Virus record (IMG/VR): IMGVR_UViG_3300010403_000035
Span: 1 to 41,834 of that record
Strand: one strand, 5' to 3'
DNA: 41,834 nucleotides
Source of the DNA: a virus
Shown here: one piece after another, positions 2,164 to 33,132 of the stretch
How the letters are laid out: the number at the start of each line of letters is the position of its first letter
Numbering within the stretch: the first letter of the stretch is position 1
Made by a program: the position numbers and the translations under genes
Notes under the pieces: model-generated
What the model was told of the DNA's origin: nothing
Database searches by the model: none
Seen by the model: the letters and a program-made list of their open reading frames with translations, nothing else

Positions 2164-4083
2164 ATGGCCAGTTTCAGCAGGAGTGCCATCAACGCCTTCG
2201 GTGCAGGCTACAATGCAGCCAGCCCCAGAGAAGACAAAGACGGCAAAACCGCCTACCAGCGTTACGTAGAAAAGTTCTATGGCCCCGACGTAACATCGCA
2301 TCGTGATCCAATAGCCCTCGCTCGTGCCGCTAGCGGTGCAGTCGAGAGGGGCCTAAAAACCGGTGCAGGGTTCCTCTCCCATGCAGCTGCAGGGCTGCTG
2401 GGTGCCCCTCAGGGTCCTTCCAGAGCTACCCCACAGGCTTCAGGAGGTGGTATTGGCTCCGACGTTGGTGCTGCCAGCCGTGATATCCCTTCCAACCGGT
2501 TGTATGGCAACTCTGCCGTCAGTGCCGGGTTAGGCAGTGCGGGTGGTTCGGGTAGCGGATACGGTAATTTTAACGATGTAGGATCGCGTATTTCCAATGA
2601 TCTGCAGCGTGATTTTGGACTTAGTGCCAATCAAGCTGCAGGTATCGTAGGTAATCTCGGTCATGAAAGCGGGGGCTTTACTAAATATCAGGAGGTTAAC
2701 CCAACATCCGGGCGCGGCGGTGCAGGTTGGGCACAGTGGACAGGCTCACGCCGCACTGACTTTGAGAACTACACCAAGCAGAATAACCTCCATCCACAAT
2801 CGTACGAAGCGAATTATGGGTTTCTAAAGAAAGAACTTACCGGCCCATATAAGGGCGCAATAGCTGCTGTGAAGAAAGCTAATACAGTTCAAGACGCCGT
2901 ATATGCGTTTGAAGGAACGTATGAGAAAGCAGGGAAAAATACTAAAGGTTATGGCTCACGCCTAAAGTATGCGAATAGTATAGTAGCTGGTGCACCCACT
3001 ACAGCATTGGCTTATACTTCTACAGGAGCAAAGTTAACCCCTGCACAACAAGCTGCAGCTGCGGAAGCAGCAGGTCAGCCAAGTAGTTTAGGTAGTATTT
3101 CCAGAAGAGGCGACGACGTTGCTGCAATGCAGAGGGACTTAAACAGTAGAGGTGCTAAGCTCACCGTGGATGGGCTAGAGGGTCCGCTCACCAGACAGGC
3201 AGCGCAGCAGTTCTACGGCTCTCCCACCAGCGTGCGCACGCCGAGCTTCACCAACCCGCCCGCTACTACCGCAAACAACTGGTCGAGCCTGCAGGGTTCT
3301 CCTACCAGCACCGTGAACCAGCGGCAGGACTACGTGTCCACGCCCGGCTTCACCAATCGGCAGTCCTATACATCGGGCAGGGGCGACGAGGGGAGCATCC
3401 CCCGTGCCGGCGTAGCGTCCACCCCCAGCACCAATCAGCCATACACCCCTGCAGCGGCTACGCCGCAAACCCCCTACTACAATAACCCCTACACAGGCTC
3501 CACAGGGGGCAGCATTAATCCAAACATACGGACTGTGCAGGCGGTGCCGATACAAAGCGACGTGGCGCATAAGTCGCCCCTGCCGGGCTATTACGACGAC
3601 CAGACAGCTAGTGGCATGACAATACAGGGAGGGCGTCCAGTGCCCACCCGTGGTGGATACGCGCCTACCACGGCTCCGGTGCTGGCTGGCGGGTTTTCGC
3701 GTGCTCCAGTGCCACAGACGCCCTCTTTTATGGACCCCTACACCATGTCCACCGGAGGCGCGAACGCCATCGTGCAACCAACGCAAACAGCGCGCCTCCC
3801 GCGCGCACGACCGGACTACCAGCCGCCGCAGCAGGCGGTCCCCACTGCAGGCATGAGCTTGGGTGACCTGCAGGCCCTTGCCGAAAAATATGGTGTGCCT
3901 GTCGGGCATATAGCCGACGTTGCAAGCGACATAGGCTCGCGGGCAAGCAGTGCGGTCAGGGAGGGCATGAGCCGCAACGCCGGCAACAACTACTCGGGCG
4001 GAAATTACCAAGGCGGTAGCTATGGTGGCGCTGCCGGAAGAAGCATAAACACAGGCGTGGGGGGTGCGTTTAAGAACCGATAG
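2164..4083 (+). CDS. virion-type lysozyme with peptidoglycan-binding domain, 639 aa
   Basis: Residues about 137-275 resemble the phage tail lysozyme family (Phage_lysozyme2), with the motif GNLGHESGGF whose Glu (about residue 168) is the likely catalytic acid, then GAGWAQWTGSR. Residues about 309-353 look like a PG_binding_1 domain (RRGDDVAAMQRDLNSRG, VDGLEGPLTRQA). The remaining C-terminal half is a long Pro/Thr/Gly/Tyr-rich disordered region, followed by a short helical piece and a Gly/Asn/Tyr-rich end. It probably cuts the cell wall during DNA entry or lysis. I chose the ATG at 2164 (MASFSRSAINAF, AAAGG upstream). A TTG at 2044 and an ATG at 2092 are in frame and would extend the N-terminus with unlikely sequence. 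The next gene follows after 11 bases and is a holin candidate. Confidence 0.75.
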   Translation: MASFSRSAINAFGAGYNAASPREDKDGKTAYQRYVEKFYGPDVTSHRDPIALARAASGAVERGLKTGAGFLSHAAAGLLGAPQGPSRATPQASGGGIGSDVGAASRDIPSNRLYGNSAVSAGLGSAGGSGSGYGNFNDVGSRISNDLQRDFGLSANQAAGIVGNLGHESGGFTKYQEVNPTSGRGGAGWAQWTGSRRTDFENYTKQNNLHPQSYEANYGFLKKELTGPYKGAIAAVKKANTVQDAVYAFEGTYEKAGKNTKGYGSRLKYANSIVAGAPTTALAYTSTGAKLTPAQQAAAAEAAGQPSSLGSISRRGDDVAAMQRDLNSRGAKLTVDGLEGPLTRQAAQQFYGSPTSVRTPSFTNPPATTANNWSSLQGSPTSTVNQRQDYVSTPGFTNRQSYTSGRGDEGSIPRAGVASTPSTNQPYTPAAATPQTPYYNNPYTGSTGGSINPNIRTVQAVPIQSDVAHKSPLPGYYDDQTASGMTIQGGRPVPTRGGYAPTTAPVLAGGFSRAPVPQTPSFMDPYTMSTGGANAIVQPTQTARLPRARPDYQPPQQAVPTAGMSLGDLQALAEKYGVPVGHIADVASDIGSRASSAVREGMSRNAGNNYSGGNYQGGSYGGAAGRSINTGVGGAFKNR

Positions 4084-7450: not shown

Positions 7451-9577
7451 ATGGTAAATACTTTGCCACAGCGTGGGGTACTGCGGGTTGTGCCCGGTGC
7501 CCAGCTGGAAGCTCAGCTTCAGGCTGAAGCCGCCGCCAAGATACAATTAGAAAATCCTCCCCAGCCGGATATGAGCGCGTTGGCCGCCTACGTAAGGGGC
7601 CAATTCGAGATGTTCCAGCGGCATAGGAACGATGCCGCTTCTGGTTGGACCGAGAGAATGCTCTCGGCGTTGCGCACATTCAATGGGGTGTATGATAGTA
7701 CCAAGATAGCCGAAATAAGAAAGTTCGGCGGGTCTATGGTGTATGCCCGAATTGTCGCAATGAAATGTAGAGGAGCTAACTCGCTCCTAAGAGATGTTTA
7801 TCTGGCACCAGACAGGCCGTGGGCCATTGAAGCGCCCGCCGACCCGGACTTACCCGCAGAGGTAATTCAGTCCATCCAGACGCTGGTGCAGACCGAGCTG
7901 ATGAGTTATCAGCAGCTTGCTCAGCAACAGAGTTTATCTCAGCCGGGTGCTCCCCCGCCCGAGCCTCCTAATCCAGCGATGATCCGTGATCGGGTTAATC
8001 AGTTGATGGAGGCAGCTAGAAACGCCGAGAAGAAAAATGCACGTAAGCGAGCTGCGCTGGCACAGGACAAGATCGAGGAGATACTTGAGAGCGGCGGGTT
8101 CTACAAAGCAATGGCGGAAGTGCTTATGGACCTTCCGCTCTTCCCATTTGCTTGTCTTAAAGGACCGGTTGTTCGTATTGTCCCCGACGTTACATGGGAG
8201 CCTGATGCTCAAGGAAATGTTGCTCCTACAGTCAGTGAAAAGCCCCGGATGTTCTGGGAGAGGGTATCGCCTTTCGATATCTGGTTCACTCCTGGAGTTG
8301 CCGACATAGAGAGTGCTTCCGTCATAGAGCGTACTTCTCTTACACGTGCAGATTTGAACGATCTTTTAGATTTACCGGGGTACGACACTGAAGCAATTAG
8401 GAACGTACTGACCGAGCACGGGCAGGGTGGGTTACCGGGCGATTGGGACACTGCAGATAGCGAACGCGCCGTCTATGAGAAGCGCGAGAACCCGCAGAGT
8501 AACTTCTCCGGGATGATACATTGTATAACTTTTCATGGGAATGTGCAGGGGCAGATGCTTCTGGATCAGGGTATGCCTCCTGACCAGATACCCGATCCTG
8601 TTCGTGACTACATGGTGCAGCTATGGTTGATTGGAAGGCATATTATAAAATTACAGCTGACGCCATCCCCACGGAAGCGTCATCCTTATTTCATAACCAG
8701 TTTCGAGAAGGTACCGGGGACGCCCGTAGGGAATGGCCTCCCGGACTTGCTTGCCGATATACAGGAAGTCTGCAATGCAGTCCTGAGGTCGTTAGTCAAC
8801 AACCTCTCTATCGCGTCTGGCCCCCAAGTCGATGTGAACATTGATCGTCTTGCGCCCGGTGAAAACCCCGATGACATGTTCCCGTGGAAGCGCTGGCACA
8901 CCACTACCGACCCAATGGGGAATAATTCCCAACCCGCTATTAGATTCTTCCAGCCCAATAGCGTGGCTCAAGAGCTACTTACCGTCTACAAAGAACTTAA
9001 CATCATTGCTGACGACATCAGCGCTATCCCAAAATACATGTCAGGCTCCGGTACTTCAGGTGGTGCTGGAAGGACAGCATCAGGACTGGCAATGCTCATG
9101 GGTAACGCCAGCAAGATACTGCAAACCGTCGCAGCTAATATCGACCGCGACATTATGTTCGGAGCCCTACAGCAGCTTTTTGACATGATAATGCTCACCG
9201 ATCAGTCGGGGGTGTTCCGTGGGGACGAGAACATTCGCGTTATGGGTGTCAACGTTGCGATGCAGCGTGAAACTCAACGTGCGCGCCAGCTTGAGTTCCT
9301 TTCTATTACGGCAAATCCGCTTGACGCCCAGATCATTGGCACGCAAGGACGCGCCAAGGTCCTACGCACTGTCTCTAACACCATTGGGATGGATGGCGAT
9401 ACTATTGTACCGCCTGACGACGAACTACAGAAAATTCAAGCTCAGCAAGAAGCTCTGATGCAGCAGCAAGCTGCAGAAGCTCAGGGGAGCAAACCCGGTG
9501 CTACCTCGACTGGAGACAGTGGCCCTCGTACTAACATTAGTCGTGGTGCTGGTCCTGTTGGTGGTGGTGCTGGATAA
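7451..9577 (+). CDS. portal protein, 708 aa
   Basis: The protein forms the DNA channel at the head vertex. Evidence is its size, its position before scaffold and coat genes, and a typical podovirus portal layout: a long N-terminal helical region with QFEMFQRHRNDAASGWTERM, a central beta/alpha core (PFDIWFTPGVADIESASVIERT), and HPYFITSFEKVPGTPVGNGLPDLLADIQEVCNAV, SGTSGGAGRTASGLAMLMGNA and a Gln-rich C-terminal tail. It is close to the all-helical-wing portals in which GRTASGLAML is a recurring motif. I use the ATG at 7451; a TTG at 7445 is in frame, and neither has a clear ribosome binding site. Confidence 0.85.
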   Translation: MVNTLPQRGVLRVVPGAQLEAQLQAEAAAKIQLENPPQPDMSALAAYVRGQFEMFQRHRNDAASGWTERMLSALRTFNGVYDSTKIAEIRKFGGSMVYARIVAMKCRGANSLLRDVYLAPDRPWAIEAPADPDLPAEVIQSIQTLVQTELMSYQQLAQQQSLSQPGAPPPEPPNPAMIRDRVNQLMEAARNAEKKNARKRAALAQDKIEEILESGGFYKAMAEVLMDLPLFPFACLKGPVVRIVPDVTWEPDAQGNVAPTVSEKPRMFWERVSPFDIWFTPGVADIESASVIERTSLTRADLNDLLDLPGYDTEAIRNVLTEHGQGGLPGDWDTADSERAVYEKRENPQSNFSGMIHCITFHGNVQGQMLLDQGMPPDQIPDPVRDYMVQLWLIGRHIIKLQLTPSPRKRHPYFITSFEKVPGTPVGNGLPDLLADIQEVCNAVLRSLVNNLSIASGPQVDVNIDRLAPGENPDDMFPWKRWHTTTDPMGNNSQPAIRFFQPNSVAQELLTVYKELNIIADDISAIPKYMSGSGTSGGAGRTASGLAMLMGNASKILQTVAANIDRDIMFGALQQLFDMIMLTDQSGVFRGDENIRVMGVNVAMQRETQRARQLEFLSITANPLDAQIIGTQGRAKVLRTVSNTIGMDGDTIVPPDDELQKIQAQQEALMQQQAAEAQGSKPGATSTGDSGPRTNISRGAGPVGGGAG
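7850..7865. repeat. dispersed palindrome copy 5 (inside portal gene)
   Basis: TTACCCGCAGAGGTAA, with perfect arms and a central CA step. It encodes LPAEV in the N-terminal third of the portal protein. Confidence 0.85.
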
Positions 9578-21467: not shown

Positions 21468-21917
21468 GTGATTGAGTTTGGTAGAGCTGACCACGGGAAG
21501 AGGATTGCGGAGGCGGCTGGTTTTATATGTGGCCCTAGCGATATTGTTATTAGTCGGACGGACGAATGGGGGAAGCTCCTCGGTGGGGTTGTTTATTATG
21601 ACTATACGGGAAAAAGCATATCAATGCATGTTGCTGGTTTTACTCCTAGATGGATTAATCCTGAAATGTTATGGGTTACTTTTGACTATCCGTTTGTTCA
21701 GTTGAAGTGCGCTTCGATATTTTGTCAGATACGATCTAGTAACCTTAAAGTTCTTGAGTTTGTTAAGAAAATAGGATTTAAGCGGGAAGTTGTAATACCT
21801 GAAGTTTTCCCCGATGGGGACATGGTAGTTGGCAGACTAAGAGCTGAAGAGTGCCGGTGGCTTAATATCAAGCCTAGGCATATTACCTCTGGAGGTAAGA
21901 ATGGGTGGAAAGTCTAG
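21468..21917 (+). CDS. GNAT-like acetyltransferase-fold protein, 149 aa
   Basis: The frame starts at a GTG (MIEFGRADHGKRIAEAAGFI). The pattern GGVVYYDYTGKSISMHVAGF, then FCQIRSSNLKVLEFVKKIGFKRE resembles the GNAT fold, with the Asn-x-x-x-x-x-Phe-x-x-x-x-Gly-Phe end signature. Such proteins are common in podophage structural blocks and may modify virion or host proteins; the substrate is unknown. Its 3' end overlaps the next gene and includes a dispersed palindrome. Confidence 0.7.
   Translation: MIEFGRADHGKRIAEAAGFICGPSDIVISRTDEWGKLLGGVVYYDYTGKSISMHVAGFTPRWINPEMLWVTFDYPFVQLKCASIFCQIRSSNLKVLEFVKKIGFKREVVIPEVFPDGDMVVGRLRAEECRWLNIKPRHITSGGKNGWKV
21883..21898. repeat. dispersed palindrome copy 10 (overlaps ribosome binding site)
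   Basis: TTACCTCTGGAGGTAA, with perfect arms and a central TG step. It supplies GGAGG for the ATG at 21901 and lies within the last codons of the GNAT-like gene. Confidence 0.9.
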
Positions 21918-22932
21918 CGCTCCATCGCCGCCAGACTATGGTCCTCTGATCAAGGCGAACGAGAAAACTTCTGCGTTTGCGATGAAGCTCGCCCAAGACC
22001 AATGGGATTGGGCAAGGAAAGTCTACGACGAAAATAAGGGACTGATGACGGATACAAATACCTCGTTTTTAAAGTCAATGGAAGATGCACGTATAGCGAG
22101 TGAAGAAGATAGACAGAGATATAAAAATATCTACCAGCCGCAGGAAGATCGTATGGTTCACGATCTTCAGACTTATGACACACCTGAAAGACGTGACAAG
22201 GAAACGGGTGCAGCTCAAGCTAATGTAGCGCAGCAGTTCCAAGGAGCACGTGATCAGGCTACGGCTCAGCTAGAGTCCTATGGTGTTAACCCAAGTGCTA
22301 CACGCTTTGCCGCTATGGACAAGGGCATGCGTGTTCAAGAAGCTATGGGTAAAGCCGCTGCAGGGACTAACGCAGCAACAAGCGTAGAGGACAAAGGGCG
22401 CGCACTCAGAGCCGCAGCCATAGATATTGGTAAGGGCTATCCGGGGTCGTATACTGCTGCGGGACAGCTAGGTATTAACGCTGGTGGGCAAGCGCAGCAA
22501 GGAACCAACCAAGCTTATCAGACTGGTGCACAAGCTATGGGCACCGGCCCTGAATGGCTAGGCGGTTCTAACCAAGCTTTAGGAAATTGGGGCAACGCAC
22601 TTAACAACCAGTACACTAACCAGCTCGGGCAGTTCAACGCTAACCAGAGCGCGTCCAGTGGGTGGGGGAGCGCCTTGGGCATGCTTGGCGGCATGGCGTT
22701 GAAGCATTGGGGCTTTGATGACGGCGGCGCTGTATCCCCGGAGATGAGCCCCTCTAGGGGCGCGGTGGAAGACGATGTGCATGCCGCAGTGAACGTGGGT
22801 GAGTTTGTTGTCCCTGCAGATACTGTGAGCTGGCTTGGTGAGAAGCATTTCCATAAACTGACTGAAAAAGCGCGAGAAGAACGTGCTGAAGCGCAAGCCG
22901 TGCCGACAGATATTCAGCCTACTTACTCGTAG
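21901..22932 (+). CDS. internal virion/ejection-type protein, 343 aa
   Basis: The protein starts MGGKSSAPSPPDYGPLIKAN, typical of small internal virion proteins. It is Gln/Ala/Gly-rich with helices, then a Gly/Asn/Gln-rich region. The end contains the recurring phage motif VNVGEFVVPADTVSWLGEKH followed by FHKLTEKAREER. It is first of three consecutive large proteins whose sizes rise as in the T7 gp14/15/16 ejection set. Role inferred from that order. Confidence 0.65.
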   Translation: MGGKSSAPSPPDYGPLIKANEKTSAFAMKLAQDQWDWARKVYDENKGLMTDTNTSFLKSMEDARIASEEDRQRYKNIYQPQEDRMVHDLQTYDTPERRDKETGAAQANVAQQFQGARDQATAQLESYGVNPSATRFAAMDKGMRVQEAMGKAAAGTNAATSVEDKGRALRAAAIDIGKGYPGSYTAAGQLGINAGGQAQQGTNQAYQTGAQAMGTGPEWLGGSNQALGNWGNALNNQYTNQLGQFNANQSASSGWGSALGMLGGMALKHWGFDDGGAVSPEMSPSRGAVEDDVHAAVNVGEFVVPADTVSWLGEKHFHKLTEKAREERAEAQAVPTDIQPTYS

Positions 22933-22944: not shown

Positions 22945-25587
22945 ATGCCCTTCAATCGCGAGCTTGAGGACTTCGCTCAAGCGTTCTCTTCGGGTTACGC
23001 TGGGGCTAAATCTCCAAATGAGCGAGAGGCAGAGAAGCTTAATCTTGAAAAAGGAAGGCTTGAGGTAGGACACCTTCCAACGCAGTATGCGAATGAAGAT
23101 GCGCAAGCTGCTGCTACGCTAGAAAGTACGAACACTACAAATAAATTCAATTTGCTTAAGTTGCAAAACCTTCCGACAGAACTAGAACAGGCAAATAAAC
23201 TAGCTGGCCTACAGATAGAGAGTGCAGGACAAGACGTTGAAGCTAAGAAACGTGCAGCACTGCGCGAGCCAATAGATAACGCACATAAAGATGCGCTGTT
23301 TGACCTTGAGAAACAGCACGATCAAAACCTTATTACAGAAGATGAGTATAAGGCAGGGCGTCGTGTAATTGATGACGCATATACAGATAAGATAAATAAG
23401 CTTAATTTAGGAAAAACTGAACACGAGCTTAACCTAGCTGCAGAACAAGATACTCCTGAAAGAAAAGCGGCAAGAGATAAAGTAGTAGCTGCTGAAGTAA
23501 CTTCTGCAGAGGCTAAGGCAAAACTAGATGCATTGAACGCATCTCCTGAGAGCATTGCAAGAAACGAGGAAATTAAAAAAGAGGAGTTGAAGAAAGCTAA
23601 GGCAGATAGAGAGTACCAAGAAGCACTTACTGCAGCTAAGCGACTTGAAATCGATAACACATTTAACTTTGCGGACTTTTATAATAATCAAGCAGGATCA
23701 GACGTAGACTTTGGTACGCAAGCCGTGCCTGAGGGGCCAGCTAGTTCAACAGGTGTGGACCCGAATACAGGAATGAACACGGGCGCGGGGCCAAGGATAG
23801 GTGGTTCTGTTCCGGGTCCTACCAGTGCGGTAGACGTTCCTTCTACAACTACCGTTGCTTCTGCGGCAGCTGTTCCTCCTGAAAGCCCTCCCGGTAGCGA
23901 GGCAATTGTTGGTACATTTAATCCCCCGGATTTGGTGGGACCATATGAGGGAGCAAACCCGGAACCGGCTCCTCCAGAAGAAGCAGTACCCGCAGATACT
24001 GGTGGTGGCATGAACATCGATGCAGAACGCGGTGCCCCCGATATGCGCTCTCCATCATCCGCACCGGGGTCGGTATATCCAACAAGTCCAAAGGCAGACC
24101 CGGCACAAGCAACCCTTCAGAAAGCTAAGACTACGGGCAAGCTGACCATACCCGATCTTATAGACCTTGGCATAAAAGTTACGCCAGAGGCGTTAAAACA
24201 TTCAGCCGAGATGAGTGGTCTCATGGGGAACGAGTCAGCAGTTGATACACCAGAGACAGACCAGATGCATGCCAGCTGGCTGAACGGGGCTAACGGCGCA
24301 AACCCTGCCACTGCCGAGATGGTTCTGGCTACTATGGACGAAGCCACCGATGGTAAGCTTAACCCCAAAGAAAGGCTTATGGCTACCATTGGTGCTGGGT
24401 ATTTATATCATTCGGCGAGGGGAGAACCTGAGAAAGCTAAGGGGTATGCCATCGGTATGGTGGAATACGGCAGGCACCTTGCTGGACAGTATTCTGCTTT
24501 TGCTAAAGCTGCTGCCCATAGTGGTGATCCAGATGCTACCGCCATGGCAGCTATGCGTGCCTACGCGCATGTCGGGAATGGTAAGACCCTTGATGTGTCT
24601 AGGGCACCGGATGGGGAACATTTTATAGCTCATATTACAGACCTGAAGACCGGTAAGACTATTCTCAAGCAGCTTATGACGCCAGACGAAGTAATGGCGC
24701 AAGCCATGAAGACAACACCGGATGCAGTCATCCCCGAGATGTTGTCTGCTGCTGGCGAAGAGGACAAGACAATAACACGTGCCGATGCAGTAGTTCTTAG
24801 CAGTCAGACTGGCATTCCCGTTGATGTAATTGATGGTATGACCATGGCAGGGTTTACTGCGTACCAGCAAGGAGAAAAGAATAAAGCAGACAGTAAGCCG
24901 AAGGTTTCTGCTATTAGCATGGACGACGTAGAAGCTGCGCAGACGGCTATAAATCAGACAGCCGATACGCTCATAAAGCGTGATGTAGACCGTAAGACGG
25001 GTATAGCAGATTTGTTTGATGTTCCTAACGCTAGGGATAACCTTGTTCCTGTTGCGGCTGACATAATGGTGAGGAATACAGATAAGGTTATTAGTTCAGA
25101 CCAAGCCATACGGGCAACCAAGTACCTTGTTGAAAACGGCCTTCCTGAAAAAATGGAGGAGTATGACGATAATACTTGGATCATTAATGTTCCCGGTCAG
25201 CGCCACGTTAAGCTGGACAAGGGCCGTGCGGATATGATCATAGCCTCGCATGATCAGTATCTGGCTAATAAGAAACTCACCGCATCCGAGAAAAAGGAAA
25301 GGGCTGATAAGGACGCAGCTGATAAAGCGAGAGACATGGAGTGGCGTCAAAGAATACAGGAAAACGTGCAGCGGGGGGACGAGGCTGTGTATCCACAGAT
25401 TGGGCCGGGAGCTGTGGACGAAAGTGATCCTACTAATTACCCACCGATGGGTCCTGAAGCAGTGCCTGCTGGGCCTGCGCCACCTATTGCGAATGCACCG
25501 CCCCGCAGGCGTTTGTATGTGCCACCCGCTAGTGTGATACCGCAAAATCAATCTGAGCCTTGGTACTGGAGGATGTTTAATAATTAG
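22945..25587 (+). CDS. large internal virion protein, 880 aa
   Basis: The N-terminal quarter is a long charged coiled coil (about residues 30-240; SPNEREAEKLNLEKGRLEV, then many Glu/Lys/Ala helices). Residues about 250-400 are Pro/Gly/Ala-rich and disordered. The C-terminal half is helical and includes GNGKTLDVSRAPDGEHFIAH. The end has a second acidic helix and a proline-rich tail (YVPPASVIPQNQ). It is likely part of the DNA-ejection complex (gp15-like position). No enzyme motif seen. Confidence 0.65.
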   Translation: MPFNRELEDFAQAFSSGYAGAKSPNEREAEKLNLEKGRLEVGHLPTQYANEDAQAAATLESTNTTNKFNLLKLQNLPTELEQANKLAGLQIESAGQDVEAKKRAALREPIDNAHKDALFDLEKQHDQNLITEDEYKAGRRVIDDAYTDKINKLNLGKTEHELNLAAEQDTPERKAARDKVVAAEVTSAEAKAKLDALNASPESIARNEEIKKEELKKAKADREYQEALTAAKRLEIDNTFNFADFYNNQAGSDVDFGTQAVPEGPASSTGVDPNTGMNTGAGPRIGGSVPGPTSAVDVPSTTTVASAAAVPPESPPGSEAIVGTFNPPDLVGPYEGANPEPAPPEEAVPADTGGGMNIDAERGAPDMRSPSSAPGSVYPTSPKADPAQATLQKAKTTGKLTIPDLIDLGIKVTPEALKHSAEMSGLMGNESAVDTPETDQMHASWLNGANGANPATAEMVLATMDEATDGKLNPKERLMATIGAGYLYHSARGEPEKAKGYAIGMVEYGRHLAGQYSAFAKAAAHSGDPDATAMAAMRAYAHVGNGKTLDVSRAPDGEHFIAHITDLKTGKTILKQLMTPDEVMAQAMKTTPDAVIPEMLSAAGEEDKTITRADAVVLSSQTGIPVDVIDGMTMAGFTAYQQGEKNKADSKPKVSAISMDDVEAAQTAINQTADTLIKRDVDRKTGIADLFDVPNARDNLVPVAADIMVRNTDKVISSDQAIRATKYLVENGLPEKMEEYDDNTWIINVPGQRHVKLDKGRADMIIASHDQYLANKKLTASEKKERADKDAADKARDMEWRQRIQENVQRGDEAVYPQIGPGAVDESDPTNYPPMGPEAVPAGPAPPIANAPPRRRLYVPPASVIPQNQSEPWYWRMFNN

Positions 25588-25603
25588 TTACCTTTGAAGG
25601 TAA
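25588..25603. repeat. dispersed palindrome copy 11 (before giant gene)
   Basis: TTACCTTTGAAGGTAA, with perfect arms and a central TG step. GAAGG in the right arm serves the ATG at 25609. It starts on the base after the previous stop codon and is identical to the copy at 40471. Confidence 0.9.
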
Positions 25604-25608
25604 GAAGT

Positions 25609-28600
25609 ATGGCCCAGCTTAAATTTATCGATCCCTACGAGACCCCGGATCAGCAACACGCTGACGATCTGGCTGGCGATGTTTCGTGGGGTGATTATGC
25701 TACGGCTCTAGCTGCCGGCTCTACGGATGTAGTTGGCTCGATACCCGCCGTAACTCGCTGGATAGGCGAGAGCATGCCCGAAGATAGCCTGTTTGGGCAG
25801 ATGCTTGTTAACCGTGGCCGGTATCATGAGCGCAAGCTGAATGAGACTGCTGAAGATTTAACTTCCAGCATGAGTGACTCTGCGCAAGCCAGATCACTTG
25901 CTACGATAGGCTCCAGTGATTTTCTAGCGCATCCGTTTAGCTCGCTTGCCCTGAAAACTACTAGAACTGCTCCAAGCATCGCAGCGTCTATTGGGGCTAC
26001 GTTGTTCACTGCTGGCGGTGCGCCTTCTATGGCGGCTATCGCAGCGGTAAGCGGTGGGTTGAGTGCTGGTGAGACACTCAATGAGATGTACACCGCCGTA
26101 GACAACATGGACGATAAGGACCTACGCAAGTCCAGCACCATTTATGACGGCTATCGCAAACGTGGTTTATCTGAAGATCAAGCGCGCAGAGAACTAGACC
26201 GTGCAATGATCGGCTACAAGCCGTTTGGCTTGTTTGCACTAGGCGCTGTGACAGGTGTTGTCGGTCCCGCCGGGCAGATTGCCGGTGTTCTAGGCAAAGC
26301 TGGTCTTGGTAAAGCCGCAACCGAAGTTGCTAAAAGAGGTATCCTCAAGCGCGTAGGCATGGAAGCAGCGCAAGGAGCGGGTGCTGAGTTTGTACAAACG
26401 GGTGCTGAGCAGTTCTCGCAAGAAAAAGCTGCTGTTGATGTAGGGCTTCAGTCAGATATTAGATGGGGTAATGTAGCAAGCGCTGCAGCGGAAGGCGGCT
26501 TGATTGGTGGTATCCTTGGAGGTCCCACTGGTATTAAATCGCACACCAACGCCAACCCGCGTCCCGAGCCAGACAACCCCGCCGCAGTTGAAGTAGAAAC
26601 CGCAGTAAAGCCCAACCAAGCCTCTGTGCCGGCTAGAGCCTCTAACACACAAGCTTCTCCCCCAATCGTACCTCCCACTGGGACACACACTGCATCTACG
26701 TCCAGAGCCGCTACTATTCCCGGCGCTACGCCTAACCAGAAAAAACCAAAGGTCGCCCCCGGTGCACCTAGCCGCCCTGCCGCAGCAGCTGGAACTCCCG
26801 CTGCCACTACCGCCACAACGACCGCCACGCCCACCATTGGTACCGTGGCCGGGTTAGCCCCTAATACCTATACCCCTGCTTCTAAACCAGCTCCCCAAGC
26901 CTCACAGGGCGACCCTAAGGGGCTTGTAGCGGGCCAGACGGAGTTAGCTGCCCTAAACACCCAAGTCGCGCCTACGGGCATCTCTGGGGCTCCGGTGCAG
27001 GCTGTTCCTACAACGCCAACTGCACCGAGAACTACCGCTCAAGTCCAACGTGATGAGGGCGTAGGTTATGGTGAAGCTACTCGTATTGCCCATAGCGAAG
27101 GTAACACTTCAGGTATTACCCCTGCAGGTAATGTCGCTCCCCCCGCACTTACTCCTGCTGCTTCAGCGCCAGCTCCAACTCCTGTTCCACAGGTCCCCGC
27201 CCAGACACCCGGCGCAGGTTTTGGAGCTGGTCCTGAAGCAGCACCTGCCGTGCAGGGGCGTGTTTCTAATTTAGCGCCTAATACGGTTGAGGTCGCTGCT
27301 CCTGCTCCTGCTCTTCCCACCACAGGACGTGCACCACGTGTTCTGCAAGTTGCTCCAACCAAAGAGAACGCCGTTGAGATAGCTAGACAGAAAGCGGCTC
27401 GCGAAGTAGCAGCTGCCGCAGACGCAAAAGCTGAAGCTGCCGCTACTAAAGCCGCCGCAGACGCAGAAGCTAAAAAAGATACACACTATTCCATGATTGG
27501 CGTGGAGCCAGCTAAGGGGAAACAAAAAAGTCGTATCAATAAAGTTATTGACGATAGTGTTATTGCACGAAGATTACTGGATGATCGTCCGACCAATTCA
27601 ACGGTCCCAACCACTGAAGAAGGAATAAATGCGCTTAAGTCTGAATTGGACACTGCTGTTAAGTCTGCTGTAGCGCAGGGTGCAGACTTACGTGGTCAGG
27701 TTGGTCATGTATCTACCCCGCACTCGCTTGTGTGGCTTCGGGAAGCGCAGGAGCTTGTTAGCTATCTTGATAGCAAAAAGAAAATTGAGTTAGTTAATAA
27801 ACAAAAAGCTGTAGCAAGGTTTATTGATCGTGAGACAAGGATCAGGCTTGGCGAAGGGGTAGCTGTAAAAGCCGAGCGCGCGCTTGAAGCCGAACAGGCG
27901 CAAGCAACAAAAGGTAAAGGCAAGGGCCAAGTAACAGAACAAACCCAAGAAAGTGATGCCACTCCCGCTACATCTACCGCAACAAAGCCAATAAGTGTAG
28001 AAGCACCTACCGAAACAAAAACATTAGCCCGTAAAGCCGAGAAAGGCGGGGGTACAATAACAGTTGAGGTACCTAAGGCTGTAGAAGAAAAACCTGAAGA
28101 AGATTTAGAAGACCTAACTCAAAAGAGCGAAGCTATAGTCGAGCAGACTAGGGCACAAAAAATAATTGCTGATAAAAAAGCCAAGGAAGCAGCCAAGCAA
28201 GCTGAAGCCAGAAAAAGAGGCGAAGCAGCGCGTGCAGCGATAGAGGCTCGCACTGCAGAAGCGAATAAGAAAGCCGCAGAGGCTAAGGCGGCTGAAGCAG
28301 CTAAGCCTAAGCCCTTACCTCCACAGGTAAGTGAAAGGGTAGAAGCATCAAAAGAGAAAGCTGCACAGAAAGAAGCGGCTCAAGAGGCGAAGAAACCTCC
28401 TAAAGCGCGCAAGAAAAAGACAACAATAGTTGCGCCTAAGGCTTCTTCTCCGGCAGCGTCCTCTGCAGATTTTGCTGCACAGGTTAAGGCGGAAGTAGAG
28501 CCTAACCCCTCAGATGCGCAGATACTTGCAGACAACGCTTCTAAAGCGCATGTCTCTATTGAGGGCATGCCGCTTGCTATTGAGACGGCAGCAAATACTG

Positions 28601-31600
28601 AACGTCAAATAATTACCCCTACGGGTAGTCGTATTGGTAGGCTTTATAAATATGCCTACGGGCATATATTGGGGACAAAAGCTCCTGACGGAAATCCCAT
28701 TGATATCTTCTTGGGGCCAGAAGCTTACCCAAATAACCCTAAGCTAGAGGGCCTTCCTGTCGTTGTTATCGATCAGGTAGACCCGGATACCAAACTTCCT
28801 GACGAACCCAAGGTTATGTATGGGTTCGAGACGGTTAAAGATGCAGTAGCCGCTTACGAGGATAGTTATCCGCGCGGTCCAGAGCGTCGTGGCGACGTTA
28901 CGCCGATGACGCCAAACGAGTTCAAGCAATGGAGGATATCCAAGCAAGAAAACAAGAACGCTCAGGAGCCCGCAGGAGCGCCTGTCAGCGAGCTTGACGC
29001 GCTTATTGCAGAGCAGACTGGAGAGATATCTGCAGAAAGGGCAGAAGATTTAGAGAGTGTCCTAGATACTGACTTAGAGGCTTATGGTGACACACAGCCA
29101 AGAAGACTAAGGCTGGCAAATGATACTTTTGATGAGTTTAACCAAGTACCTTTAGAGGATCAGGTTGCTGCCTCACGGGGACGCGCCGCACGCCAAGAAC
29201 TGGAAGTAGCAGCTGTATCGTCAGACATAGGTACAGTGTCGAGTTTTCTTGATGCAGGCGTTCAACAGCAGAACAGCAAGGAGCGCGTTGGTTACGGACT
29301 AAAAGAGCGTGCACTTTTTCCGCATGTAATGAGACGCATAAAGGCGCTGGCTGGAGATGTAAAAGTATATGTTGTGTCAGGTAAAGATTTACAAGGAAGG
29401 CTTGGTAAGGGCGCTAATGTTGCTGGGTTTTATAGCGATGGAGGTGGCTATATAGTTGTTAATGGGGACTTGAGCCCCATTCAGTTTGCTAGGACGGTTC
29501 TGCATGAAGGTATTCATGCAGCGTTCGTAAAGGCTACACTCGAACATCCTGAGCTTATGGTTCAGTTGGATAAAATTCTGGAGGAAGGCTACGCCAAGTG
29601 GAAGAGTGTACCGGGTAACTACCTTAATGGTAAGTTGCCTTATGGCCTGACCAGTATCCATGAAATTCTTGCAGAGGCGCTTAGCAATCCACGCTTCCAA
29701 GAGTTTCTCTTAAATACCAAAGCTAGTAACGAGCTTGTTAAAGAGCTTGGGCTGGATGGCAAGTTCCGCTCAATGTGGGACGTGCTTATGCGGTTCATAG
29801 GCAAGATATTTAAGTTACCCAAGGCGCATGACTCGTTGCTCAGCGCAGTACTAAAAGTATCTTCCAAGCTTGAGCTTGCTGCGCCTGACTACGAAGGCGC
29901 AATATCTGATAAAGCCCTAGCTAACAACCTTCGCTATAAAGCGACAGGGTTGTTTCCCACTGACATAGAGTCAAGGTTCACAGATACTGTTGATCGCATC
30001 AATGAGAAATTACCCGCACGGGTAAAGAAGGTTCTTGGCACCGACGTTGCCCAACAAGATCAGGCAAACTCTCCTTGGCTCATGACTTTGCGAACGCTGG
30101 ATCAATTGATCCAAGTCGCCAAGAGATATGGACAGCCATTTTATGAACACCTCCGCAAGGTGGGCGACACCATTGAGCGTATTCGCACCACTGCAGGGAA
30201 ATACCTCGACGAGATGACGCCTCTCATAAACGAGAGCCATGGCTTAGAGCAAAAATACAAAGGCACTGATCTGTGGAAGAGGTTTGTTAATCTGGTTCAT
30301 GCCGAGACCAGACTGCAGGTTTATTCTGACCGTGATCTCTCTAGCCAGAAACATCTTGGCAAGAACACTCTCAGGGGTGCACAGCCCAAAGCAGAGTGGA
30401 GGGAACTTAACAACGAGTTCAAGGCACTTGCGGCTGCAGCTCCTGATCTCATAGCCTTCCGCACCAAAGCGATGGATTTTTATAAAACATCTCAAAACAG
30501 GGAACGACTTGGTATTGTTAAAAATACTTTGGAGATTGCTGGGTTTCACGATCCGGCTCTTGCCCAGAGACTATTCGATGGCGACGAGACTGAAGACGAT
30601 AAGTTGCTTCTTAAGCAGACCTACGATCACATCAAGGATGCCGCAGAGCTTGCCAAACTAAAAGGCCCGTATTTCCCCCAAATGAGAAGGGGCAATCACG
30701 TCGTCCGTGCGTTGTTTAAAATCGTCGCCCCGAAGTATGCGCTAAGGGCGCTGCCTGATGCGAACGGCGAAGTAAGAACTTGGGAGTTTGCCGGTAAGAA
30801 CGCTCGTAACCAAGCGATGGACTTCGCAGAAGCGCAAAAAGGTACCGGCATGGTGGCTACTCCGGTATCAGTATGGGTAGATAAAAACACAGGCGAAAGA
30901 TATTTTAACCTAGGTCAACCCGACGAAGTTCGCGTCCGTCCAGAAGACACTGATGCTGAACAACGGTTCAGGGTTACAGTACAAAACCGCTTCGTGGAGT
31001 TCTACGAAACAAAACGACAGGCACGTCAGGTAGCGGCTGCACTTGCAAGTGACCCAGCCGTAGATACTGATACTATTGCTCCGGTGGTCGAGAAGAGGTT
31101 TAACCCCGGCGACCGGCAAGCAGGCTTGATGTCGCATCAGCTAAGTGTATTGGCTGATAGCTTAGCTAAACGCCCCGGCTACCAGAACCTTAGCGACAAT
31201 GAGAAGAACCAAGTTGTACAGGCGTTTAACACTGCCAGCCTTAGGTTATTATCTTCTACGCGCATACAAACAAAGCGCATGCAGCGTACGAACGTGCTTG
31301 GCGCTTCTAATGACTTCACTAGAAATCTAACGGAGTACTCGCAGTCTGTAAGTGGTTATCTGGCAATGCTGGATCACCAGAATGATCTTAACACAGCCAT
31401 GGTCGCCGCCCGCAAAGAAGCCGATAGTTTCAGCGACTACAACAAAAGTGGTGGGCAAAGCTCTATCATGAACGTGATAGAGAAGCGCGTTAAAGGCGCT
31501 ACTGCGTTTGATAATTCTGGTAGAGCCTACGAGTGGGGCAACAGGCTGCTGGCTCTAAGCTTTGCGTCCAAGCTTATTTCTCCCGCTACTAACCTGCTTA

Positions 31601-33132
31601 ACTCGCTGCAAGTACCTATGGTGACCTATCCGGCACTGGCGTCAAGGTTTGGTCCGGGGCGTGCAGCGCAGATGCTGTTTAAGGTTTATAGGGAGATTGG
31701 CGTAGCGAACGTCCTCAAGCAAGGTATCGTTGCTTCCAAGCGCGCTATCACGCAGGGGCCGAACGCTGAAATGCCAAATATGGTAGAGGATATAATTTCC
31801 AGAGTAAAATCCCCGCAAGTGCGTGCCATGCTTAAGCATTTGATCGAAGTCGGTTCTATCGATGCGAATGCCGGTATAGAAATATCCGACCTGATCGAAA
31901 CCCGCACGGGCGCTCTAGGCACGATAGATCATTATACAAATTATATTCATACTTTTGGCAGGCAGATGCCAAAGGCTATTGAAGCTGTTAACCGTACTGT
32001 TACTGCTATTGCATCTTATAATCTGGAGATGCAGCGCTCAGGCGACCATGATTTAGCTGTGAGGTTTGCACAGGAAACCACTAATACTACGCAGGGATTG
32101 TATTCACACACCAACGCTGCGCCAGTATTTAATCATCCTCTTGGAAGATTAAGTTTACAGTTTAAGAAATACGGGCAGCTAATGTATAGCATGCTTGGTC
32201 ATAACATCGGCAAAGCTGTAATGAACGCTGAGCCGGGGGACCGCGCAGAGGCACTCAAGACGCTTGGTTATTTGCTGGGTACGCACTTTGTGATGGCAGG
32301 CGCATTGGGCCTCCCGCAGGAGCCGCTAAAGTGGCTTATTATTGGTGCGCGTGCAGCGGGCGCAAATGTATCATGGGCTGGCTTCGAGCACGGAGAACGG
32401 GAGTTTTTGTCCAGTATACTTGGGCAGGGACTTGGTGAGGTCGCTGCACGGGGTATAACCCGCGCACTCCCAGAAAGCTTCTCGTTTGATCTTAGCGGTC
32501 GTGCAGGCATGCAGGACTTGCTAACGTTTGGCGAACCACGCTCTGCAGACAAGCAGGACCTTAGTGCTTTCTTCTGGGATACCGCAGCTGGTGCGCCAGC
32601 GCAGATGCTGGGCGATTGGATAAAAGGCTCGCAGGCAGCATTGAATGGCGACATCGGAGAAGCCGCTCAGAGGTTCTCTATTATCAAGGTAGTCACTGAC
32701 GCCATAAAGAGCTATAGAAATACTTCAGGCGAACAGAAGACCGCTGCTGGTTACGAAAAACTATCAGCCTATGGACTTGGCGAGACAGCGATCAGGGCGT
32801 TTGGATTTACCCCCGCGAGGGAGGCCGAAACCTCAGAAGCGAGAAACTATTTTGCACAGGCCACTAAAGCTGCATCTAAAGCCAGAGACGATCTTATGCA
32901 TCAATGGTTTGAAGCAAGTCCTAGTGACCGTGGCAGGCTTTGGGGTACAGTAGAGAAGTTTAATTACGGTAAGACAAGGGACGAAAAGCTTACCCGCGCC
33001 GATCTTGACAAGTACGCAAAGCGTAGACGGACAGAAGAAAGATCAGGGCTGGTCAAGTCTGGGTTCAGGGTAACTCGTCGTGATACAGAGACATACAAGA
33101 AGCTCGGAAATACTTACAACATTAGCCCATAG
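25609..33132 (+). CDS. giant polyvalent virion protein with pyrophosphatase-like and zincin domains, about 2507 aa
   Basis: Residues 1-310 are helical with Gly/Ala-rich segments (IAASIGATLFTAGGAPSMAA) that could contact membranes. Residues about 315-620 are a Pro/Ala/Thr-rich linker, and about 760-980 are Lys/Ala/Glu-rich helices. Residues about 994-1115 match the InPase-type domain of phage polyvalent proteins (GHILGTKAPDGNPIDIFLGP, then VVVIDQVDPDTKLPDEPKVM). Residues about 1230-1400 are a zinc metallopeptidase: HEGIH (His1299, Glu1300, His1303) with a likely third ligand in HEILAEALSNPRF. The last 1000 residues are helical. It is likely injected with DNA (gp16-like). I chose the ATG at 25609 over the TTG at 25594. 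At least four dispersed palindromes lie inside. Confidence 0.75.
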   Translation: MAQLKFIDPYETPDQQHADDLAGDVSWGDYATALAAGSTDVVGSIPAVTRWIGESMPEDSLFGQMLVNRGRYHERKLNETAEDLTSSMSDSAQARSLATIGSSDFLAHPFSSLALKTTRTAPSIAASIGATLFTAGGAPSMAAIAAVSGGLSAGETLNEMYTAVDNMDDKDLRKSSTIYDGYRKRGLSEDQARRELDRAMIGYKPFGLFALGAVTGVVGPAGQIAGVLGKAGLGKAATEVAKRGILKRVGMEAAQGAGAEFVQTGAEQFSQEKAAVDVGLQSDIRWGNVASAAAEGGLIGGILGGPTGIKSHTNANPRPEPDNPAAVEVETAVKPNQASVPARASNTQASPPIVPPTGTHTASTSRAATIPGATPNQKKPKVAPGAPSRPAAAAGTPAATTATTTATPTIGTVAGLAPNTYTPASKPAPQASQGDPKGLVAGQTELAALNTQVAPTGISGAPVQAVPTTPTAPRTTAQVQRDEGVGYGEATRIAHSEGNTSGITPAGNVAPPALTPAASAPAPTPVPQVPAQTPGAGFGAGPEAAPAVQGRVSNLAPNTVEVAAPAPALPTTGRAPRVLQVAPTKENAVEIARQKAAREVAAAADAKAEAAATKAAADAEAKKDTHYSMIGVEPAKGKQKSRINKVIDDSVIARRLLDDRPTNSTVPTTEEGINALKSELDTAVKSAVAQGADLRGQVGHVSTPHSLVWLREAQELVSYLDSKKKIELVNKQKAVARFIDRETRIRLGEGVAVKAERALEAEQAQATKGKGKGQVTEQTQESDATPATSTATKPISVEAPTETKTLARKAEKGGGTITVEVPKAVEEKPEEDLEDLTQKSEAIVEQTRAQKIIADKKAKEAAKQAEARKRGEAARAAIEARTAEANKKAAEAKAAEAAKPKPLPPQVSERVEASKEKAAQKEAAQEAKKPPKARKKKTTIVAPKASSPAASSADFAAQVKAEVEPNPSDAQILADNASKAHVSIEGMPLAIETAANTERQIITPTGSRIGRLYKYAYGHILGTKAPDGNPIDIFLGPEAYPNNPKLEGLPVVVIDQVDPDTKLPDEPKVMYGFETVKDAVAAYEDSYPRGPERRGDVTPMTPNEFKQWRISKQENKNAQEPAGAPVSELDALIAEQTGEISAERAEDLESVLDTDLEAYGDTQPRRLRLANDTFDEFNQVPLEDQVAASRGRAARQELEVAAVSSDIGTVSSFLDAGVQQQNSKERVGYGLKERALFPHVMRRIKALAGDVKVYVVSGKDLQGRLGKGANVAGFYSDGGGYIVVNGDLSPIQFARTVLHEGIHAAFVKATLEHPELMVQLDKILEEGYAKWKSVPGNYLNGKLPYGLTSIHEILAEALSNPRFQEFLLNTKASNELVKELGLDGKFRSMWDVLMRFIGKIFKLPKAHDSLLSAVLKVSSKLELAAPDYEGAISDKALANNLRYKATGLFPTDIESRFTDTVDRINEKLPARVKKVLGTDVAQQDQANSPWLMTLRTLDQLIQVAKRYGQPFYEHLRKVGDTIERIRTTAGKYLDEMTPLINESHGLEQKYKGTDLWKRFVNLVHAETRLQVYSDRDLSSQKHLGKNTLRGAQPKAEWRELNNEFKALAAAAPDLIAFRTKAMDFYKTSQNRERLGIVKNTLEIAGFHDPALAQRLFDGDETEDDKLLLKQTYDHIKDAAELAKLKGPYFPQMRRGNHVVRALFKIVAPKYALRALPDANGEVRTWEFAGKNARNQAMDFAEAQKGTGMVATPVSVWVDKNTGERYFNLGQPDEVRVRPEDTDAEQRFRVTVQNRFVEFYETKRQARQVAAALASDPAVDTDTIAPVVEKRFNPGDRQAGLMSHQLSVLADSLAKRPGYQNLSDNEKNQVVQAFNTASLRLLSSTRIQTKRMQRTNVLGASNDFTRNLTEYSQSVSGYLAMLDHQNDLNTAMVAARKEADSFSDYNKSGGQSSIMNVIEKRVKGATAFDNSGRAYEWGNRLLALSFASKLISPATNLLNSLQVPMVTYPALASRFGPGRAAQMLFKVYREIGVANVLKQGIVASKRAITQGPNAEMPNMVEDIISRVKSPQVRAMLKHLIEVGSIDANAGIEISDLIETRTGALGTIDHYTNYIHTFGRQMPKAIEAVNRTVTAIASYNLEMQRSGDHDLAVRFAQETTNTTQGLYSHTNAAPVFNHPLGRLSLQFKKYGQLMYSMLGHNIGKAVMNAEPGDRAEALKTLGYLLGTHFVMAGALGLPQEPLKWLIIGARAAGANVSWAGFEHGEREFLSSILGQGLGEVAARGITRALPESFSFDLSGRAGMQDLLTFGEPRSADKQDLSAFFWDTAAGAPAQMLGDWIKGSQAALNGDIGEAAQRFSIIKVVTDAIKSYRNTSGEQKTAAGYEKLSAYGLGETAIRAFGFTPAREAETSEARNYFAQATKAASKARDDLMHQWFEASPSDRGRLWGTVEKFNYGKTRDEKLTRADLDKYAKRRRTEERSGLVKSGFRVTRRDTETYKKLGNTYNISP
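27116..27131. repeat. dispersed palindrome copy 12 (inside giant gene linker)
   Basis: TTACCCCTGCAGGTAA, with perfect arms and a central TG step. It encodes TPAGN in the Pro/Ala/Thr-rich linker. Confidence 0.9.
28315..28330. repeat. dispersed palindrome copy 13 (inside giant gene linker)
   Basis: TTACCTCCACAGGTAA, with perfect arms and a central CA step. It encodes LPPQV and interrupts a long Lys/Ala/Glu-rich helix region. Confidence 0.85.
28613..28628. repeat. dispersed palindrome, near-copy (start of InPase-like domain)
   Basis: TTACCCCTACGGGTAG, one base off at the last position, with a central TA step. It encodes TPTGS at the front edge of the pyrophosphatase-like domain. Confidence 0.65.
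30010..30025. repeat. dispersed palindrome copy 14 (inside giant gene)
   Basis: TTACCCGCACGGGTAA, with perfect arms and a central CA step. It encodes LPARV. It is identical to the intergenic copy at 16776. Confidence 0.9.

Follow-up and report, generated by a model that had tools for sequence, protein, structure and literature searches.

A giant ejection-type phage protein combining a conserved zincin domain with an altered pyrophosphatase-fold domain

In short-tailed phages, the last ejection protein reaches the host at a very early stage. Large phage proteins that join an InPase domain to an MPTase domain were described by Iyer et al. in 2017 as polyvalent proteins, for which injection was considered likely and autoprocessing was proposed; 12 MPTase clades were defined, and the MPTase of N4 vRNAP was included in the proposal (PMC5512222). 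The kind of protein considered here, with an InPase and a zincin, is thus already known. N4 gp50, which is packaged uncut (PMC5512222), is ejected together with two partner proteins, consists of a membrane-active NTD, a long linker, the enzyme, a C1 domain with an HExxH motif and a large helical C2 domain, and has been proposed to thread through the tail like beads on a string (PMC12633501).

The protein described below is encoded in an IMG/VR virus record of 41834 bases (the window), which has no end repeats and is therefore possibly a fragment; the nearest related contig measures 65 kb. Like the polyvalent proteins of 2017, it is a large phage protein with an InPase-fold and a zincin-like domain, lies in a late virion-gene context and is predicted to be injected, whereas in the clade of the window a catalytic acid has been lost from the InPase. 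It shares with N4 gp50 a zincin homologous to C1, the rank of largest member of the ejection set and the order of parts (a membrane-type N-terminal region followed by linker, enzyme bead, zincin and a large helical C-terminal region). In contrast to N4 gp50, it has no RNA polymerase, an InPase-fold domain standing in that place, and its C-terminal region has no sequence similarity to C2. A limited literature search found no earlier report of the Drulisvirus-type gp16 zincin, of an optional InPase or of a pseudoenzyme clade.

Gene neighbourhood and layout of the giant protein

The genes of the window to which the text refers are as follows.

7505..9577, + strand: portal (PF23899, phrog_332)
21468..21917, + strand: GNAT-like acyltransferase, 149 aa (phrog_4470, E 2.8e-35)
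21901..22932, + strand: gp14-like virion protein, 343 aa (phrog_8003, E 2e-73)
22945..25587, + strand: gp15-like protein, 880 aa (synteny with L106, L092, L093, L090 and L004)
25609..33132, + strand: giant ejection-type protein, 2507 aa (single ORF; NF032893 and phrog_37402 matches)

A major head protein, tail proteins and a terminase are also encoded. Rhizobium phage RHph_TM27A (L004), whose protein is a full-length homologue of the window giant, has these genes in the order GNAT, gp14-like, gp15-like, giant as well, and this order is also kept in the IMG/VR contigs L106, L092, L093 and L090. This synteny upholds the gp16-like position at the end of an ejection set that had been proposed from the letters of the window (the sequence-only reading). 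The order of T7 genes 13-16 parallels the cassette, but the T7 proteins match different PHROGs, so the parallel is positional. T7 gp16 (phrog_342) resembles the giant in its place after the gp14- and gp15-like genes and differs from it in content: profile comparison detects no zincin in T7 gp16, which has an SLT domain, whereas the giant has a zincin, no SLT and, in the PHROG scan, no phrog_342 match. The absence of a lytic transglycosylase motif, noted earlier by eye, agrees with the Pfam scan, in which none was found in the giant at E <= 1 while the same library gave the SLT of T7 gp16 at E 1.7e-31. Relatives of the giant are present in Bradyrhizobium genomes (L238, L239) and in Rhizobium phages, and this occurrence suggests an alphaproteobacterial host. 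Several long ORFs of contig L003, the sister of the window, are broken into overlapping frames (L003:9944-17354 and L003:1610-3671), for which assembly indel errors are the simplest reading.

The giant gene is a single ORF of 2507 codons for amino acids (window 25609-33132, + strand); its ATG at 25609 is preceded by a purine-rich AAGG, and an in-frame TTG is also present upstream, at 25594. The parts of the protein are given below.

25894..26544, + strand: N-terminal region, residues 96-312, Gly/Ala-rich and conserved (hydropathy; 30-35% identity to distant relatives)
26545..28488, + strand: low-complexity linker, residues 313-960, Ala/Pro/Thr then Ala/Lys/Glu (composition; poor conservation)
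28516..28932, + strand: InPase domain, residues 970-1108, with Asn1029 at the place of E. coli D67 (PF18823, Foldseek, alignments)
28687..28704, + strand: altered InPase active-site motif D1027-G-N1029-P-I-D1032 (alignments)
29326..29862, + strand: zincin domain, about residues 1240-1418 (family alignment, profile comparisons)
29503..29517, + strand: HEGIH, residues 1299-1303 (H, E and H invariant in 39/39)
29662..29676, + strand: E1352-I-L-A-E1356, with E1352 as predicted third zinc ligand (E1352 in 39/39, E1356 in 38/39)
29926..33129, + strand: mostly helical C-terminal region, residues 1440-2507 (AlphaFold secondary structure; NF032893)

Conservation extends over the N-terminal ~310 residues; within them lies one hydrophobic stretch, at residues 200-228, which hydropathy marks as a candidate membrane segment. 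PF18823 (InPase) is the sole Pfam family above cut-off in the protein. Toward the C-terminus, NCBIfam model NF032893 ('PLxRFG/tail-700') matches residues 1794-2477 (E 6.8e-71, 239.6 bits against a cut-off of 100), and phrog_37402 spans residues 1228-2470 (E 2.3e-165); no RNA polymerase family was found in scans of Pfam, PHROGs and NCBIfam. With proteins of the F116 and H66 type the giant thus has in common the C-terminal region of about 700 residues, and F116 p60 differs in carrying ART-PolyVal and LPD23 instead of the InPase. With PF18823 and the zincin as domains of unrelated activity in one ORF, the kinship with polyvalent proteins proposed by the sequence-only reading is supported. An 88-base inverted self-match within the gene (27156-27243) falls in the low-complexity linker and was disregarded.

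The pyrophosphatase-fold domain

That the giant contains an InPase-type domain is well founded: PF18823 matches residues 970-1108 at 97.9 bits (cut-off 26.8; E 5.5e-28), and when a model of residues 960-1440, made by AlphaFold with seven family sequences, was submitted to Foldseek, the top 50 PDB matches were all inorganic pyrophosphatases (probability about 0.95-1.0). The InPase fold, as modelled, is sound. The ranges first put forward for the two domains, residues 990-1120 and 1230-1410, lie close to the limits found here.

The profile aligns a 23-residue stretch of E. coli PPase with the family motif DGDxxD. In the window this motif reads DGNPID, with the equivalents of D65 and D70 retained (D1027, D1032) and the equivalent of D67 changed to N1029, so that the set of catalytic acids of an active family I pyrophosphatase (D65, D67, D70) is incomplete. 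D67 of the E. coli enzyme is presumably catalytically important, and we take it to correspond to yeast D117, the proposed general base. An acidic residue (D or E) occupies this position in 98 of 101 distinct InPase sequences drawn from IMG/VR and from relatives; it is N in the window, K in L011/L003, the nearest relative, and G in L022. In the family of the giant itself, DGD is found in the full-length InPases, the window and its sister excepted. A further member, L258, shows S, G and K in place of the three acids of the motif and is without about 20 residues before it (residues about 980-1110 of the product of L258:2484 onward); its zincin is intact (HEGAH, NEMLAEAF). A tree of the C-terminal region groups the window with L003, L245 and L258 (clade support 100/99), the DGD-bearing L246 being the sister branch. 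Because the replacements in the window, L003 and L258 differ within this single clade, the clade has lost the InPase catalytic site in different ways.

Further conserved positions are also lost in the window (W1009, F1064, H1067 and Y977), three of the changes, F1064P, H1067P and Y977A, being common to the window and L003; D1027, D1032, D1058, D1065 and K1068 of the site are still present. Between these two proteins, conservation is highest in the InPase: identity is 78% there, 40% in the zincin and 35-57% in the linkers, and dN/dS of the InPase is about 0.10, a rough value, dS being near saturation. High conservation despite the lost catalytic residue suggests that the domain is probably retained as a pseudoenzyme, for some reason other than hydrolysis, and the window InPase is probably dead as a pyrophosphatase. 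An enzymatic pyrophosphatase is not supported by the residues at these positions (N1029 here, K in L003, three acids lost in L258), and disrupted metal ligands, which the sequence-only reading had named as evidence against its proposal, are found in the InPase, where D67 is replaced. Such a predicted pseudo-InPase is a caution against deducing an injected pyrophosphatase from a Pfam match alone.

An InPase-type domain that keeps DGDxxD was also seen at the C-terminus of PDB 9b41 chain L, a gp19 portal (profile E 6.6e-40); no literature on this portal with an InPase domain was found.

The zincin domain and its relatives

The metal ligands of the zincin are, in contrast to those of the InPase, undisturbed. 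H1299, E1300, H1303 and E1352 are invariant in all 39 distinct family members, and E1356 is present in 38 of them, so that both the HExxH helix and the downstream Glu of a zincin-like metallopeptidase are present. This invariance, together with profile alignment to two other sets of ejection proteins, indicates that HEGIH marks a genuine domain and is no chance motif, as had been proposed. The predicted order of elements, namely a helix, three strands, the HEGIH helix and a later helix from E1352, is modelled with a confidence of about 70 and fits the published description of the MPTase, in which an N-terminal helix and three strands accompany two helices that bear HExxH and Glu (PMC5512222), with weak support from Foldseek (IrrE 3dte, probability 0.41). 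The models are of modest confidence overall (pLDDT 66 and 56); a Foldseek search of the zincin-plus-CTD model gave no significant match in the PDB, and in BFVD it returned large polyvalent-type proteins, which are uninformative on function. No Pfam model matches the zincin, and a first profile, built from six distant zincins, lacked any stretch with enough conservation for scanning a collection.

The InPase is carried by only about half of the giant's family, and the zincin is kept without it. Of ten middle regions scanned with Pfam for an enzyme in its stead, nine gave none and the tenth (L258) is a broken InPase; the idea that another enzyme takes its place was rejected on this ground. On these comparisons the zincin and the C-terminal region are the core of the family and the InPase is optional, the zincin being its predicted conserved catalytic part. 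In the literature searched, no report of protease activity was found for any member of this zincin family.

By profile comparison the zincin of the giant is homologous to that of N4 vRNAP C1 and to a zincin in gp16 of Drulisvirus, Maculvirus and Novosibovirus. Against a profile of 74 N4-like vRNAP C1 domains, hhalign gave 97.1% (E 6.8e-11, 174 columns), and the match survived masking of HEGIH at 84%, whereas reversed-profile controls gave 0.2%; against the gp16 alignment of the three genera it gave 98.2% (E 2.8e-14), these E-values referring to a single pair and not to a database. Homology of the whole protein to N4 gp50 was rejected beyond the zincin: the C-terminal region showed no similarity to C2 (hhalign 0.1%), and a 65% match at the N-terminus was distrusted since it covers the Gly/Ala-rich hydrophobic stretch.

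A search with this zincin matched 333 phage records. When the zincin alone was the tblastn query, matches extended to internal virion proteins from Drulisvirus, to a giant of a Helicobacter pullorum prophage and to crAss-like phages; HExxH and a downstream Glu were present in those distant proteins that were examined. In the crAss-like cr272_1, the same zincin (L009:6915-13760, HEIVH at residue 431) is encoded by a gene that adjoins a 19-kb gene and has in-frame stops under table 11.

The proteins in the gp16 position of Drulisvirus, Maculvirus and Novosibovirus, each with HELIH and a downstream E, are the following.

L007:4975-8673
L010:4975-8673
L234:2834-6688
L235:2927-6712
L236:2909-6679
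L237:2996-6715

These proteins (KpV74 gp47 among them) are like the giant in their zincin, in gene position and in that no transglycosylase was detected in any of the six; they differ in being 1232-1284 aa long, without an InPase and without the NF032893 C-terminal region. The LT domain of T7 was likewise undetected in the Drulisvirus gp15 or gp16 alignments, and KpV74 gp16 matches phrog_342 from profile position 180 only, whereas T7 gp16 matches from the start. Many Drulisvirus-type gp16 records carry the label endolysin or lytic exotransglycosylase; in many Klebsiella and Vibrio phage records the sequences labelled 'endolysin' or 'lytic transglycosylase' match this zincin, and the label is misleading.

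A proposed course of events and the cutting of the wall

By analogy with N4 gp50, and given the homologous zincin, the giant would be packaged in the head, precede the DNA out of it as a chain of small domains and be delivered whole; its N-terminal region would hold it at the inner membrane with the remainder reaching the cytoplasm, an arrangement reported for N4 gp50. The zincin would be the enzymatic function and would cut after entry, a timing for which the uncut packaging of N4 gp50 argues; its target may be a host protein or else the giant itself, in which case either the ejectosome anchor or the C-terminal part would be set free. We favour self-release, or a target in the ejectosome or host envelope, over an anti-defence role. 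The InPase of this clade would no longer hydrolyse pyrophosphate and may persist as a module that serves folding, binding or spacing, and the wall would be cut by the product of another gene, most likely 2164-4083. That the giant is the last and largest ejection protein, ejected whole, with a zincin acting after entry and the InPase as an inactive module, has in our judgement slightly better than an even chance of being correct.

Several other explanations were weighed. Polyvalent InPase and MPTase domains have been proposed to act on host defence or on host nucleotides and proteins (PMC5512222), and both domains of the giant could be enzymes injected for such a purpose, given the intact zincin site and the other site residues (D1027, D1032, D1058, D1065, K1068) that remain in the InPase. 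The loss of the D67 equivalent by different replacements (N, K, G), the accompanying loss of W1009, F1064, H1067 and Y977 and the lack of any known defence target make this unlikely. N1029 and the other changes might instead be sequencing errors or the decay of a non-functional phage, as the several frame breaks in long ORFs of the sister contig L003 could suggest; yet losses occurred independently in three separate records, F1064P, H1067P and Y977A are common to L003 and the window, the InPase domain is under purifying selection and the window ORF is intact, and we regard error or decay as very improbable.

Two further possibilities concern the zincin. It might cut nothing, its metal site holding the fold of a domain with a structural or regulatory role in packaging or in inhibiting a neighbouring enzyme, for the N4 region bearing this domain is needed for encapsidation (PMC5512222) and the N4 C-terminal domain inhibits the polymerase (PMC12633501). 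Such a role is rather doubtful, as the predicted general base Glu1300, dispensable for zinc binding, is invariant in 39/39. It might also process the giant before or during packaging, with only a part being ejected, as proposed for P1 DdrB, a protein that carries an MPTase and is cut before packaging (PMC5512222); the zincin, with a flexible linker on one side and the C-terminal region on the other, is suitably placed for this, but its closest studied relative, N4 gp50 C1, belongs to a protein packaged unprocessed, so that processing at this stage also appears unlikely.

Returning to a zincin that acts after entry, we offer as a tentative extension, more likely wrong than right, that several separate lineages of short-tailed phages, namely N4-like phages, the T7-like Drulisvirus, Maculvirus and Novosibovirus, and the alphaproteobacterial-phage family, may share one zinc protease in the last and largest ejection protein, without the T7 gp16 transglycosylase in the latter two, and that this would be a common post-ejection protease finishing the ejectosome or cutting a host envelope protein, the pyrophosphatase cargo of the window clade being now a conserved pseudoenzyme. 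With one zincin linking N4 gp50, Drulisvirus gp16 and the giant's family, its HExxH Glu is one site that can be tested in phages amenable to genetics, N4 among them.

As to the wall, to the sequence-only reading its cutting appeared to have moved to a separate lysozyme, and that gene is real.

2164..4083, + strand: separate lysozyme gene with PF18013, phage tail lysozyme, at residues 150-274 (E 3e-25)

Pfam detects no wall hydrolase in the 880-aa gp15-like protein of the window, and a transglycosylase hidden in that protein or in the giant was rejected, none being found; the gp15-like proteins of L106 and L092 have weak PF06737 matches (E 0.003 and 0.012) below the cut-off. In RHph_TM27A (L004), the gp15-like protein holds a lysozyme domain homologous to the 2164 product (42% identity, E 3e-22; PF18013 E 3.3e-14), and a 4816-aa polyvalent-type giant, L061:5975-20422, holds both a PF18013 lysozyme (residues 224-363) and an InPase. 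From this distribution of the domain, lysozyme function moves between genes. That a hydrolase is encoded outside the giant therefore stands, with a domain mobile among relatives, and the move itself we consider plausible. In the sister record, the homologue of the 2164 gene (L154:493-2730) matches it in the flanks and differs in the catalytic middle, which by eye resembles a muramidase and a peptidase-like stretch and has a weak PHROG match.
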